From positions 124,001 to 188,000 of the forward strand of contig NZ_LXYE02000012.1 in the NCBI RefSeq assembly GCF_001659685.2: a stretch of DNA of 64,000 nt, written 5' to 3'. Position numbers and translations under genes: made by a program. The stretch comes from Labilibacter marinus (GTDB lineage Bacteria > Bacteroidota > Bacteroidia > Bacteroidales > Marinilabiliaceae). Positions 5,714 through 51,621 of the stretch are shown here, piece after piece. The notes below the pieces were generated by a model. That model saw only the letters and a list, made by a program, of their open reading frames with translations, was not told where the DNA came from and ran no database searches. How positions within the stretch are numbered: position 1 is the stretch's first letter; each line of letters opens with the position of its first letter.

Positions 5714-6169
5714 TTATTCTTTTAATTTAGAACAATCTTTGCAGGTTCCGTAAATGTATAATGAGTGATGCGAGACCTGAAAATGCATGGTTTCTTTTGC
5801 ATTGTTAAGTACAGATTGAACACCTGGATCACAAAACTCCGTAACATTTCCACAGTTTACACAAATAAGATGGTCGTGTTGTTTAGATTCGTAGGCTTTT
5901 TCGAACTGTGCAATGTTTTTACCAAACTGGTGTTTAATAACCAACTTGCATTCTAAAAGCAAATCAATGGTGTTATATAAAGTTGCCCTACTCACTCTGT
6001 AATTTTTATTCTTCATAAAAATGTACAGCGATTCAATATCAAAATGTCCATCTCTCGAATAAATCTCTTCTAATATTGCAAAACGTTCAGGCGTTTTTCG
6101 GTGTCCGTTCTTTTGCAGAAATTCAGTGAATATTTTTTTCACTTCTTCCTTGGCCTTCACCTTATCCAT
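5714..6169 (-). CDS. Fur-family metal-responsive repressor
   Basis: DNA-binding metalloregulator of 151 residues. The N-terminal winged helix (about 1-85, with the family phrase RxTPERFxIL) is followed by the metal-binding and dimerization part: [10 protein letters not shown] (about 107-116), FCD and a final CKDC, giving the usual structural zinc Cys4 site, plus His residues in [12 protein letters not shown] and nearby for the sensory site. Fur, Zur or PerR type cannot be decided by eye; the position between spoT and purA is shared by Fur-like genes in related genomes. It could control the FeoAB locus at 37143-39638, but I did not find a recognisable Fur box there. Confidence 0.9.
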
Positions 6170-29523: not shown

Positions 29524-29579
29524 TAACTTATGACCAATGACCAATGACCAACAACTATTGACCAATAACTAATCAACTA
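29524..29579. repeat. heptamer tandem array 1
   Basis: Eight consecutive 7-nt units in exact phase: TAACTTA, three TGACCAA, CAACTAT, TGACCAA, TAACTAA, TCAACTA. The array ends next to the -33 TTG of the glyA promoter (29580-29582). TGACCAA also occurs in the array at 48801. Confidence 0.85.
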
Positions 29580-31277: not shown

Positions 31278-31487
31278 ATTATTTATCTTACAGAAGAGGT
31301 AAATATGATTTGACGTAAGTTAAATAATGATTGCGGCAATGTAAGTGAGTATTGCGAAGATGTAAGAATAAATTGTGAAGAGAAAAGTATATATTGCGAA
31401 GAGAGAAGTATGTATTTCTCAATGGTAAGTATATTTAGGGAATAATTAAGTATGTTTTGGGAAGAATGCAGCATCTATTACGAATAG
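31278..31487. repeat. 21-bp degenerate tandem array (ten units)
   Basis: Ten contiguous 21-nt units without spacers, starting at 31278, 31299, 31320, 31341, 31362, 31383, 31404, 31425, 31446 and 31467. The best-conserved ones follow GTAAGTATATATTGCGAAGAG, for example 31341-31361, 31362-31382 and 31383-31403. Outer units are more diverged. No insertion or deletion breaks the phase. Confidence 0.85.
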
Positions 31488-32959: not shown

Positions 32960-33402
32960 AACTAGCTCCGGGTTTTAACCCGGAGAAATATAAGATTACC
33001 CACATGGCTTTAGCCCAAAAATAAGTTTCGGCTAAAGCCACCTTTGTTCAAAAAATATTAACCCAGATTAAAAACCGGGTCTAGTCAAGGCAATTGCATT
33101 TAAAGATTGAATCCCTTCACGGTTCAATAAACGAATCGTTTAAAAATCCCTCGGATTGCATCCAGGGCTATTCAAATTGAACATGCGTAGGTTTTTATGC
33201 AATAACCCTGAAAGTATTAAATCTAAATAGCCTTGTGCAAAGTGCAGGGGTGTGTTTCTAAATACTATTAACAACCACAAAGTGGTTGAATTTTAAAACC
33301 ACCTCCCCACTCATTCTTCGCGGTACTCCTCCTTAAAAATGAGGAGAACTCCGCAGCACTTTCCCCACCAGGATTTTGGGAGGCGGCCGAAGGCGGGGTG
33401 GT
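32960..33402. repeat. composite REP-like repeat island
   Basis: A 440-nt gene-free stretch of palindromes: CTCCGGGTT/AACCCGGAG (32966-32985), GGCTTTAGCC/GGCTAAAGCC (33006-33039), ACCCaG/CcGGGT (33061-33081), CCCT-GGAT/ATCC-GGG (33148-33167), CAACCAC/GTGGTTG (33272-33288) and a branched structure at 33298-33402 with an inner CTCCTC/GAGGAG hairpin. Such units recur between genes in many Bacteroidota. Confidence 0.75.
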
Positions 33403-33900: not shown

Positions 33901-33971
33901 TTTTTTTCAAAAGTTGGTATCTGCATTCTTTGAGTCCTTTAGTTTAAATATTTTAATATTGTCTAGTGGCT

Positions 33972-34055
33972 TACTGCCTACTGCAACCTGTCTACTGTTT
34001 ACTGCTTACTGAAAGCTGCCCACTGTCAACTGAATACTGCCCACTGCTCACTATT
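33972..34055. repeat. heptamer tandem array 3
   Basis: Twelve 7-nt units in exact phase, mostly NACTGNN: TACTGCC, TACTGCA, ACCTGTC, TACTGTT, TACTGCT, TACTGAA, AGCTGCC, CACTGTC, AACTGAA, TACTGCC, CACTGCT, CACTATT. The last unit contains the stop codon (34051-34053) of the minus-strand TonB receptor. Confidence 0.88.
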
Positions 34056-47643: not shown

Positions 47644-48789
47644 TTACAAACCAATGTGACGCGAAATAACCATTTTCAGAATCTCGGTTGTTCCTTCGCC
47701 AATTCTTAATATACGATGGTCGCGATAAAATCTTTCTATATCTTGATTTTTGAAAAGACCTGCTCCTGCAAAAATTTGCATTCCCTCGTCAGACACTTCA
47801 GCTGCAACTTCGCTACAATATAGCTTAGCCATGGCTGCTTCTTTGCCAAATGGTTGTCCGTTGTCTTTTAACCAACAGGCTTTGTATAAGAGGTTACGAG
47901 CTAATTCAATTTTCATATCCATATCGGCCAGTTTAAACTGAACGCTCTGAAAGTTAGAGATAGTTTTTCCAAATTGTTCTCGTTCCTTCGAATAAGCTAG
48001 TGCCATTTCAAATGCACCTTGTGCTAAGCCTAAGCCCATGGCTGCAATCGAAAGACGTCCGCTATCCAGCGTTTTTAACATTTGTGATAAGCCTTTATCG
48101 GGAGTTCCTAAAACGTCTGCCTCTGAAATTTCACATTTGTCGATGGTTATTTCAGCGGTGTCAGAAGCTCGCCACATCATCTTACCTAAAGTTCTTTTAG
48201 TTGAAAAACCGTCTGTATTTCTTTTTAAGATAAAAGTAGAGTAGGTTGGTTTACCATTTTTTTCGCCTGTTAAAGCCAATACGGTTATACCATCCATTAG
48301 CTCGTTACTACCGTTGGTTATGTATCTTTTGGTTCCGTTTAATTGCCATCCATTAGTCGTTTTTGTTGCCACGGTTTCAACACCACGTGCATCCGAGCCT
48401 GCATTGGTTTCTGTAAGACCAAAAGCCCATAGTTTTTTACCACTTAATAAGTCGGGCAAAAGTGATTGTTTTTGTGCTTCGGTACCAAAATTATAGATAG
48501 GAGAAGCACCTAATGAGTTATGGGCTGCCATGGTTGCTGCTTGCGAACCATCTACTCGGGCAATTTCCTCCACCGCAATAATATATGAAAGGGTATCTAA
48601 ACCTTGGCCTCCGTATTTAGTTGGAATATCCATTCCGAAAAGCCCATTTTCTCCCATCTTTTTTGTTAACTCAACAGAAAAAGTCTCATTGGCATCTAAT
48701 TCCTGCGCTAGAGGTTTAATTTCTTTCTCGGCAAAAGCTCTTACTTTTTTTCTTAAATCTTCTTTGTCTTGGTTATAATATGGATTCAT
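47644..48789 (-). CDS. acyl-CoA dehydrogenase (isovaleryl-CoA dehydrogenase candidate)
   Basis: FAD enzyme of 381 residues that oxidises an acyl-CoA to the 2-enoyl-CoA; in this operon isovaleryl-CoA is the likely substrate. Motifs: WAFGLTETNAGSDA (about 131-144), YITNG, the FAD/dimer region YSKEREQFGKTISNFQ and MQIFAGAGLF. The C-terminal RIGEGTTEILKMV keeps Glu (about residue 365) at the place of the general-base Glu of medium- and short-chain enzymes, where isovaleryl-CoA dehydrogenases usually have Gly-Ala. Start: Met 48789 (MNPYYNQ) is chosen; six upstream codons lie in the heptamer array. Confidence 0.92.
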   Translation of the reverse strand: MNPYYNQDKEDLRKKVRAFAEKEIKPLAQELDANETFSVELTKKMGENGLFGMDIPTKYGGQGLDTLSYIIAVEEIARVDGSQAATMAAHNSLGASPIYNFGTEAQKQSLLPDLLSGKKLWAFGLTETNAGSDARGVETVATKTTNGWQLNGTKRYITNGSNELMDGITVLALTGEKNGKPTYSTFILKRNTDGFSTKRTLGKMMWRASDTAEITIDKCEISEADVLGTPDKGLSQMLKTLDSGRLSIAAMGLGLAQGAFEMALAYSKEREQFGKTISNFQSVQFKLADMDMKIELARNLLYKACWLKDNGQPFGKEAAMAKLYCSEVAAEVSDEGMQIFAGAGLFKNQDIERFYRDHRILRIGEGTTEILKMVISRHIGL

Positions 48790-48800
48790 ATAATGCTTGT

Positions 48801-48863
48801 TAGTCATTAGCCCTTAGTTAATAGTTAGTGACTAATGTCTACTGACCAATAACCAATGACTAA
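48801..48863. repeat. heptamer tandem array 2
   Basis: Nine 7-nt units in exact phase, each beginning with T: TAGTCAT, TAGCCCT, TAGTTAA, TAGTTAG, TGACTAA, TGTCTAC, TGACCAA, TAACCAA, TGACTAA. It fills most of the spacer between two genes of one operon. TGACCAA is shared with the array at 29524. Confidence 0.9.
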
Positions 48864-48866
48864 ATT

Positions 48867-50846
48867 TTATTCTGTTTCTATTAATAATTGATTTAAACTT
48901 ACCTGCTCTCCTTTATTCACATTAACTTTAGTAATGGTGGTGTCTTTCCATGCGTTTATGCTATTTTCTGTTTTCATCGCTTCCAACACCAATAAAGGAT
49001 TACCTTTTTTAATTTGTTCTCCTTCTTTTACCAAAATATCAATAATACGTCCAGGCATGGGCGCTTCTAGTCGTTTAATAAAGTCATTGTTTTCATCTTT
49101 ATTGGAACGTTTACTTCTTTCTGGTTTATCGCTGATAGCCCATTTTCTACCGCAATACTGAATATAAAAGAGCCCATCCTTACCCACTGTATAATTCAGT
49201 GAAAAATGTTTGCCCTGTATAATAAATGAAAGTTCGTTTTGTTCAATCCTGATACTTGAAATTAGAATGATATCTTCCTCGTCTATTTCAAGGCTGATGC
49301 CTGATGTATCTTGATAAATAACGGATAAATGAAGCTTGTATCCAGAAAAACGAATTTGATGTTGTTGACTTTGGCGCCAATAACCCGTTTTTCTCCAAAT
49401 GTTATCGCCACTTATTTGCGTATTATTTTTTAAGATAACGAATGCAGCCGATATAACTTCTAGTTCGGAGTTTTGCAAAGGATTTTTGGATAATAAATAT
49501 TCATGCTTCGCTTGAAAAAAGGAAGTATCATATTTACCCATTTCAAAATCTTTATCCTCCAGTGCTTTAATAATGAACTCGCGATTTGATTCTACACCAA
49601 ATAGGGCATAGTTATTTAAAAAGCTACGTAATCTTTTTATTGCTTGATCACGATTATTTCCTAAAGCAATCACCTTTTTTAATAAAGGGTCGAAGTTCGG
49701 ATTCAAGTTTTCTGTGGCTTGTGCTCCTCCATCAATTCTAATGTTAGGATGAGAGGGTATATGCGTACCAATAATCTGGCCAAATGATGGTTTGAAATTG
49801 TCTTCTGGATTTTCGGCATAAATACGTGCTTCAATGGCGTGCCCGCAGATGGTAATTTCATCTTGTGAAAAAGAAATAGGCATGCCCGAAGCAATTAAAA
49901 TTTGTTCTCGAACAATATCAACACCAGTTATTTCTTCACTTACAGGGTGCTCCACCTGTATGCGTGTATTCATCTCCAAAAAGTAATGTTCTTGATTTGG
50001 AGTCAGCAAAAATTCAATGGTACCAGCACTAACGTAGCCAATGTGTTTTGTTAATTTTAAGGCATCATTAAGGATGGCTTTTTTCACCTTGGAATCTAGG
50101 TTTGGAGCTGGAGCTTCTTCAATAACCTTTTGGTGTCTGCGCTGAATGGAACATTCCCGCTCATGCAAATGAATTATATTACCGTGCGAATCTCCAATGA
50201 CCTGTACTTCTATATGACGCGGATTTTCAATATACTGTTCGATATAAACAGAAGGATTATTAAAGTACCTTGCTGCTTCAGCGGCTGCGCGTTCAATTTC
50301 AGTTTCTAGTTCTTTAAAATCATTGACTATGCGCATTCCTTTTCCACCACCACCTGCAGCTGCTTTAATGATCAACGGTAGCTTTAGTTTTTTAGCTTCG
50401 TTAATCATCTCATCAACGTTACCATTTACTTTTTTGAGCAGCGGTACTTTACATTCTAGAGCTATTTTATTAGCTTCATCCTTATTACCCATCATCTTTA
50501 TTTGCTGGGGACTAGGACCTATAAATGCAATGTTATTAGCGATACACAATTGAGCAAACTCGTCGTTTTCAGATAAAAAACCATAACCTGGATGAATGGC
50601 ATCTACACGATAACGCTTGGCTAGCTGTACTATTTGTAATGGATTCAGATAAGTGTCCTGCAAAGAATGGCCAGTCATCATAGCCTTTAAATCTGCCTTT
50701 TCAACATGTAAGGCATCCTCTTCGGCATCGGTGTAAATGGCTACCGTTTCAATACCCATATCCCTAGCTGTTTTAATGACTCTTACAGCTATTTCACCTC
50801 TATTGGCAATTAAAATTCTATTAAACTGATGGTATGTTTTCTCCAT
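48867..50846 (-). CDS. methylcrotonyl-CoA carboxylase, biotin-containing alpha subunit
   Basis: Biotin carboxylase fused to a biotin carrier domain, 659 residues. The ATP-grasp core opens with ILIANRGEIAVRVIKTARD and includes the ATP loop KAAAGGGGKGMR and EMNTRIQVEHPVSEEITG. The last 70 residues carry the biotinylation site VLEAMKTEN (Lys about 625). Start: Met 50846 is chosen since it fits the family N-terminus; an extension of 24 codons would only deepen the overlap with the hydratase gene, already 26 nt. Fatty-acid AccC has no fused carrier, and the neighbouring hydratase and dehydrogenase support methylcrotonyl-CoA over acetyl- or propionyl-CoA. Confidence 0.92.
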   Translation of the reverse strand: MEKTYHQFNRILIANRGEIAVRVIKTARDMGIETVAIYTDAEEDALHVEKADLKAMMTGHSLQDTYLNPLQIVQLAKRYRVDAIHPGYGFLSENDEFAQLCIANNIAFIGPSPQQIKMMGNKDEANKIALECKVPLLKKVNGNVDEMINEAKKLKLPLIIKAAAGGGGKGMRIVNDFKELETEIERAAAEAARYFNNPSVYIEQYIENPRHIEVQVIGDSHGNIIHLHERECSIQRRHQKVIEEAPAPNLDSKVKKAILNDALKLTKHIGYVSAGTIEFLLTPNQEHYFLEMNTRIQVEHPVSEEITGVDIVREQILIASGMPISFSQDEITICGHAIEARIYAENPEDNFKPSFGQIIGTHIPSHPNIRIDGGAQATENLNPNFDPLLKKVIALGNNRDQAIKRLRSFLNNYALFGVESNREFIIKALEDKDFEMGKYDTSFFQAKHEYLLSKNPLQNSELEVISAAFVILKNNTQISGDNIWRKTGYWRQSQQHQIRFSGYKLHLSVIYQDTSGISLEIDEEDIILISSIRIEQNELSFIIQGKHFSLNYTVGKDGLFYIQYCGRKWAISDKPERSKRSNKDENNDFIKRLEAPMPGRIIDILVKEGEQIKKGNPLLVLEAMKTENSINAWKDTTITKVNVNKGEQVSLNQLLIETE

Positions 50847-51621
50847 TATTCCAAACTGGTTTTCTTTTTTCAAAAAATGCCTTAACGCCTTCTTGTCCTT
50901 CGTTTGACGTTCTTGCATTGGCTATTAATCGGGCACAATACAATAATGATGTTTCTTCATCAATATTTTCCTCTAAGCGATGAATCAGTGATTTAGTTTG
51001 AATCAAAGCATCGGGTGCTGATGCTGCTATGGCGTGGGCTATTTCTAATGTTTTTTCTCGTATGGGAGCATCTTTAGAAATATAATGTATTAAAGCTTCG
51101 TTGTGTGCTTCGTCAGCTGTAAAATGCTGAGGATTCAATAATCTTTTACGTGCATTACTACTGCCCATCTTACTTAATATATAGGGCGCTATAGTAGCTG
51201 GTATTAATCCCAATTTCACTTCAGGAAATGCAAACTTTGAATCGGCTTCACAAATGGTGATATCGCAACTGGCCACAATACCTACAGCTCCACCAAAGGC
51301 CGATTTTTGTACTTCACAAATTACGGGAGTTGGAAAGCTATGAATACTTTCGAATAAGGTGGTGAATAGCTTAGCATCATTAATGTTTTGAGTTTTAGAC
51401 TGTAGAATGCCATCCTTCATCCAATCTAAATCGGCACCAGAGCAAAAAGTATCTCCTTCGCCATAAATCACCAACACTCTAAAACTTCGGTTCGATTTTT
51501 CCTCGTTTAAAGTAGTAATGATTTCTTCAATCATAGTTTTGTTGATGGCATTCTTCTTTTCAGGTCGGTTTAAACCTAAAAATCCAATTTTGTCTTCGAT
51601 ATGAAAATTAATCGTTTGCAT
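50821..51621 (-). CDS. enoyl-CoA hydratase/isomerase, likely methylglutaconyl-CoA hydratase
   Basis: A 266-residue crotonase-fold enzyme. It shows the oxyanion-hole segments RPEKKNAI and FCSGADLDWM and the second GGAVGIVASCDITICEADSKFAF, with Glu in FPEVKLGLIPA as the catalytic acid region. In leucine breakdown this step hydrates 3-methylglutaconyl-CoA to HMG-CoA. It sits between the two carboxylase subunit genes, as in liu-type operons. It begins 4 nt after the beta-subunit stop and overlaps the alpha subunit. Confidence 0.92.
   Translation of the reverse strand: MQTINFHIEDKIGFLGLNRPEKKNAINKTMIEEIITTLNEEKSNRSFRVLVIYGEGDTFCSGADLDWMKDGILQSKTQNINDAKLFTTLFESIHSFPTPVICEVQKSAFGGAVGIVASCDITICEADSKFAFPEVKLGLIPATIAPYILSKMGSSNARKRLLNPQHFTADEAHNEALIHYISKDAPIREKTLEIAHAIAASAPDALIQTKSLIHRLEENIDEETSLLYCARLIANARTSNEGQEGVKAFFEKRKPVWNNGENIPSV

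Follow-up and report, generated by a model that had tools for sequence, protein, structure and literature searches.

A degenerate heptamer array with opposed units in an operon spacer of Labilibacter marinus

RESULTS

The operon and its spacer

The window, by which we mean the whole 64-kb stretch of DNA analyzed, comes from the Labilibacter marinus genome (6.03 Mb in 81 contigs). On its minus strand lie, in order, genes for an MCC-beta-like carboxyltransferase, an enoyl-CoA hydratase, a biotin carboxylase with a carrier domain, and an acyl-CoA dehydrogenase. The first-pass annotation called this a leucine-degradation operon. The gene set fits that name; among the matches listed, the models specific to MCC or isovaleryl-CoA dehydrogenase fall below cut-off, leaving only general family matches. 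Judged by the dehydrogenase, the nearest named relatives are Saccharicrinis and Plebeiobacterium. The features discussed here are as follows.

48867..50918, minus strand: MCC-alpha-like biotin carboxylase with biotin carrier; precise start uncertain
48801..48863, minus strand: degenerate array of nine heptamers in 7-nt register, their orientation flipping near 48828/48829
48800..48863, minus strand: predicted mRNA hairpin, 64 nt, 27 pairs, -22.3 kcal/mol, z -4.95
48790..48807, minus strand: false six-codon extension (MTNKHY), partly array-derived, recognized from orthologue starts
47644..48789, minus strand: acyl-CoA dehydrogenase from its true start, placed by orthologue starts
29524..29572, plus strand: sister array whose TRACYAA-like units are direct, in the spacer preceding a serine hydroxymethyltransferase gene
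33972..34055, plus strand: sister array with another word (TACTGCC-like), adjoining a gene with TonB-dependent receptor matches

Dehydrogenase orthologues have as their first residue the Met found at position 7 of the longest open reading frame (ORF), so the true start is 48789, and the six codons before it are a false extension, as had been proposed. The ORFs of the carboxylase and of the hydratase upstream share 98 nt (50821-50918). Family profiles start at residues 30-34 of the carboxylase, and among same-genus orthologues the match starts at residue 31 in only two cases and at residues 1-15 in five.

Direct reading of the sequence bore out the earlier description of nine consecutive 7-mers, all T-initial, between the carboxylase and dehydrogenase genes. 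They occupy 63 of the 77 nt from the MCC-alpha-like stop codon to the true dehydrogenase start. The array is not a plain direct repeat. The five right-hand units are TRACYAA-like (30/35 positions agree with the most frequent base of their phase); the four on the left are the reverse complement of that type (22/28 positions), a reversal in the middle of the array that had been overlooked. TGACCAA itself occurs once in this array and, as previously noted, four times in the sister array at 29524 (at 29531, 29538, 29545, and 29559). Two other kinds of repeat lie elsewhere in the window. Downstream of the serine hydroxymethyltransferase gene, at 31350-31467, are two tandem arrays whose unit, at 21 nt, is three times the heptamer length. 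A palindromic element, whose arms resemble ACTAGCTCYGGGTTTTAACCC, has two copies, one at 32961-33085 of the window and one at 5898-6022 of locus L187; it is unlike the heptamer arrays and looks like a dispersed repeat.

The phase-consensus score of the array (42/63) was reached by none of 5,000 dinucleotide shuffles of the 77-nt spacer. When periods 5 to 11 were compared, period 7 scored 0.667 and the next best 0.582 (period 11, with five units only). Across 64 kb the score alone is only moderately rare, being attained somewhere in 9 of 60 whole-window shuffles. In the real sequence 90 overlapping scanning frames attain it, compared with an average of 0.88 in a shuffle. The three highest-scoring period-7 sites are the arrays at 48801 and 29524 and a third at 33970.

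A heptamer class across the genome

The suggestion that a repeat family lies within the operon gained support from a genome-wide scan, which yielded further matches together with an excess of lag-7 arrays. The pattern TGACYAATNACYAAT has 18 matches at 15 places in the genome, and its reversed control has none. Fourteen of the places lie outside long open frames, with no open frame of more than 93 codons running through them; the other, L004, which sits in an open frame spanning 943 codons or more, was set aside. Eight of the 14 TGACYAA arrays have opposed units and fold at z below -2.4, a ninth (L018) folds by means of other sequence, and five show no notable fold. In all eight opposed-unit arrays the TTAGTCA side comes first, as judged by eye.

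An 878-kb sample, taken regardless of motif save that the window itself was included, held 29 intergenic lag-7 arrays; ten shuffles averaged 6.6 and never exceeded 12. At other lags the count was 4 to 11, except for 19 at lag 14, and thus the enrichment is confined to multiples of 7. With genes called by a simple script as open frames of at least 90 or 100 codons rather than taken from the annotation, 25 of the 29 arrays fall in co-directional spacers, against 282 of 429 spacers overall (P = 0.015). The arrays are therefore dispersed, intergenic, and mainly co-directional, as in the Xanthomonas/Nostoc type described below. Several words coexist in the genome: TGACYAA, AGTATMA, and ACTGCC-like words were all found in a 722-kb sample that includes loci picked for motif matches.

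The period-7 excess is not universal in the genus. Lag-7 arrays numbered 5 versus 0.9 in shuffles for congener G005 and 4 versus 0.5 for G002 (100 kb each), and 1 versus 0.6 for G004 (31 kb), but G003 showed no excess in its 140-kb sample (1 versus 1.5). Outside the genus, 77 loci totaling 643 kb contained 36 such arrays versus 4.2 in shuffles; all of this sequence flanks the dehydrogenase gene and is not a random sample.

The predicted hairpin

The unit orientation flips near the middle of the array, and therefore the transcript can fold into a hairpin, which begins 3 nt past the upstream stop codon and stops 10 nt short of the downstream start codon. None of 200 shuffles of the minus-strand RNA was as stable. 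The plus-strand fold is weaker (-17.1 kcal/mol, z -2.82). A stable hairpin between two genes could act as an intrinsic terminator or as an attenuator inside the operon, but the coding strand has no T-run after the hairpin, a terminator scan found none, and convergent-gene spacers, which hold 1 of the 29 sampled arrays, are not enriched; we regard such a role as highly improbable. Rfam models gave no match to the array up to an E value of 1. A promoter scan found one site where shuffles give 1.3, and thus no excess, and a strict search for the hairpin pattern across the L. marinus genome had no matches.

We asked how far the two arms match each other by swapping arms among the eight opposed-unit arrays of L. 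marinus, using hand-chosen heptamer arms and leaving out L004, which is inside an open frame, and the six arrays without opposed units. Swapped arms were equally or more complementary (observed, 112.4; permuted mean, 121.5; P = 0.97 raw and 0.92 normalized), and for the array at 48801-48863, 13 of 14 swaps pair at least as well as the native arms. Because swapped arms pair equally well, a common word present in both orientations explains the hairpin, which, on these sequence comparisons, need not be selected. A first duplex-energy test had seemed to mark matched arms as a sign of selection (P = 0.004); it was discounted because it used the wrong L006 domain and unequal arm lengths. A general link between period 7 and hairpins was likewise rejected, strong intergenic hairpins as a class having no marked lag-7 signal. 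Since the 29 sampled lag-7 arrays fold no better than random spacers (10% versus 20% below z -2.5), fold-back is a property of a subset.

The same spacer in relatives

We compared the spacer at 34 loci, of which 22, including L. marinus itself, were readable; three spacers were seen twice (L064/L091, L065/L089, and L066/L090), which leaves 18 distinct relatives. At the 12 unread loci there was no adjacent carboxylase C terminus matching at an E value of 1e-20, or the gap was too long. Many of these do show an upstream frame, and some have long structured spacers (L097 and L112). In near relatives the gene order is conserved and the spacer is not. The G007 spacer consists of 120 nt of AGCTGAT/TAGCCAT fold-back units (-39.2 kcal/mol), and that of G005, at 309 nt, has direct AACYA-type units beside the start codon. 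G003 has two TATTGAC units and G002 has AGCTATC/AGCTAAT units, while no array was found in the MCC spacer of G004, a genome rich in several words. Nor was one found in Saccharicrinis aurantiacus (49-nt spacer) or two Plebeiobacterium genomes (47 and 60 nt). In Carboxylicivirga and neighbors the spacers measure 1 to 71 nt, with one of 141 nt.

These spacers bear on the idea that the hairpin couples translation of the two genes: a ribosome finishing the carboxylase would melt the 5' arm and open the dehydrogenase start, tying the two outputs together. The stability and placement of the hairpin, its weaker fold on the non-coding strand, the strong fold-back that G007 also has in this spacer, and the long structured spacers that precede the dehydrogenase in some farther relatives (L097, L112, and L117) are all in keeping with coupling. 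Against this, in 13 of the 18 distinct relatives no spacer fold is more stable than -5.4 kcal/mol, three of these spacers measuring just 1 to 4 nt, and the arms of the L. marinus hairpin show no matching beyond shared vocabulary. On balance, we consider coupling unlikely. The first-pass annotation had also suggested that the repeat could tune expression of the downstream genes; near relatives manage with no array there, and exchanging the arms costs no pairing.

Words across genomes

Word counts were made in nine genus genomes with patterns selected after the spacers had been seen. TGACYAA has 18 matches in L. marinus, 35 in G004, and 0 to 2 elsewhere; TAGCYRAT has 82 in G004, 42 in G007, 25 in G008, 1 in L. 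marinus, and 0 to 2 elsewhere. ACTGYM has 15 in G006, 2 in L. marinus, and none elsewhere, and AACYAWN has 9 in G004, 7 in G005, 0 in L. marinus and G007, and 0 to 1 elsewhere. Not all words are species specific: AGTATMA is widely shared, being present in 8 of the 9 congeners (0 to 71 matches). With spacer matches removed, the ratio of TGACYAA to TAGCYRAT is 17:1 in L. marinus versus 0:38 in G007; counted by places, it is 14:1 versus 0:24 (P = 1e-9). G005, where 4 of 7 AACYAWN matches lie outside the spacer, is a weak third case of the spacer word being the genome word. Thus, in L. marinus and G007, and weakly in G005, the heptamer of the spacer is common in that genome and rare in others.

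For some words the reversed pattern is an imperfect control. It gives more matches than the pattern itself for TGACYAA in five of the nine genomes (G002, G005, G006, G007, and G008) and for AACYAWN, which read backwards resembles another heptamer word, in six of nine, including L. marinus (7 versus 0). On contigs C111, C119, C129, C135, and C161 of G004, TAGCYRAT arrays recur about 150 to 160 bp apart, near a contig end in three of the five, and contig C132 has a perfect heptamer run of up to 13 units.

Length steps and dispersed copies

In G025, from another genus of the family, the TGACYAA pattern has 71 matches. Twenty stretches of this genome contain 24 arrays, 18 of which have a GCAGAAG flank in common and can be aligned with a mean identity of 75.5%. 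The anchor distances are 56, 71, 77, 84, 91, 98, or 119 nt, or one more, and 15 of the 16 measurable distances (among the 18 aligned copies) leave a remainder of 0 or 1 modulo 7. Such steps would be the expected trace of whole-unit gain and loss. The array had been proposed as a slippage hotspot; this is plausible from the 7-nt steps in G025 and from the differences in spacer length and sequence among the congeners read. The G025 copies (L238-L257) have the appearance of a dispersed element of about 200 nt with a GCAGAAG-rich flank, a heptamer core, and a conserved 3' flank.

Dispersed copies with shared flanks, and the Y1_Tnp matches present in all 10 genomes searched, would suit a REP/REPIN-type palindrome moved by a Y1 (RAYT-like) transposase. 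However, the surroundings of 18 of the 52 Y1_Tnp matches, taken as 16 stretches from genomes other than G002, G003, G004, G008, and G025, contained 3 lag-7 arrays in 56 kb, versus 3.6 expected from the L. marinus baseline of 56 in 878 kb. Fifteen of these stretches, among them those of L. marinus, contain no array; the remaining one has all three, two of which belong to the MCC spacer of G007. Moreover, the L. marinus arrays share words and, by eye, neither flanks, loop, nor common palindrome, and G025 itself has a single weak Y1 match. A transposed palindrome is thus, in our judgment, very unlikely. In G007, a Y1_Tnp match (L324) lies about 1.7 kb from the fold-back array of the MCC spacer.

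DISCUSSION

The array is best read as belonging to a class of heptamer repeats known from Xanthomonas, Nostoc, Beggiatoaceae, and a few Bacteroidetes. The closest known system appears to be the GGGAATC arrays of Xanthomonas. As portrayed in PMC4692102, these and the GGGGA(T/C)T arrays of Nostoc are degenerate 7-nt repeats found genome-wide, mainly between genes and mostly co-directional ones, the Nostoc arrays occurring also inside an operon. The Xanthomonas repeats often form closely spaced inverted pairs (70 cases in Xcc and 75 in Xac). Between two Xanthomonas species, array length and sequence differ widely, and most repeats, the most prominent ones excepted, lie between the same genes in both. 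The L. marinus arrays are similarly degenerate, intergenic, and co-directional, with inverted pairs as in Xanthomonas. They differ in being A/T-rich where the arrays of that account are G-rich with quadruplex potential (in the array at 48801-48863, a search for quadruplex G-tracts found one GGG on the minus strand and none on the plus strand). Moreover, one unit serves both Xanthomonas species, whereas here congeners use different units in one and the same spacer.

Direct TAACTGA repeats are reported in PMC4679880 from Beggiatoaceae, Cyanobacteria, and five Bacteroidetes. They are intergenic, like the arrays here, and often near start codons; some of the Bacteroidetes arrays contain other heptamers, and between two Cyanothece strains the arrays show indels in 7-nt increments. 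That system has one fixed word and direct units for which no self-folding is predicted, in contrast to the degenerate fold-back array of L. marinus, in which TAACTGA is found on neither strand. Both of these sources cite Mrazek 2007. A 7-nt period combined with a fold-back plan is also seen in the P6b stem of the Nostoc tRNA-Leu intron, which, according to PMC4476775, has one or the other of two 7-nt motifs as its basis; its length changes by 7 or 14 nt, and its motif class departs partly from phylogeny. Unlike the dispersed arrays here, P6b is a single locus within a group I intron. Among the matches listed in a search of open-licence literature by title and abstract start, none described heptamer arrays in Marinilabiliales.

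We favor, with reasonable though not high confidence, the reading that this is a lineage-specific degenerate heptamer array that has grown within a short operon spacer and largely replaced it. From the sequence comparisons, the array is most likely slippage-prone and mostly neutral or weakly selected. Replication slippage in 7-nt steps would account for growth and loss, and units copied in the opposite orientation could give rise to the fold-back. The same word might spread within a genome by copying between arrays or by dispersal of blocks, and arrays may be retained where co-directional spacers tolerate them. A hairpin between the reading frames may modestly affect stability or initiation, so that a side effect on dehydrogenase translation is possible; the hairpin was probably not selected for such an effect. 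Plain slippage does not account for the opposed units having a constant order, with the TTAGTCA side leading in each of the eight arrays.

A bolder proposal is that many heptamer arrays of a species, though unlinked, are rewritten together into a word peculiar to that species. We think this rather unlikely, and its generality is limited because AGTATMA is shared and G004 is rich in several words. The sharing of AGTATMA, together with the lack of a period-7 excess in G003, also slightly lowers our confidence in both the slippage and the concerted readings. If true, concerted rewriting would require either trans-acting, in-register copying of heptamers between sites or a heptamer-binding factor whose shifting specificity pulls the arrays along, and the MCC spacer, with TTAGTCA here and AGCTGAT in a congener, would be a readable instance.

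For annotators, the locus is a warning that ATG codons inside arrays yield false N-terminal extensions. Heptamer arrays are known in scattered bacteria and have been little studied. The interesting part here is the change of word at one orthologous spacer: in a single conserved operon the array is present, absent, or other-worded in sister species while the genes have not moved, and therefore a mutational versus a regulatory origin becomes testable.
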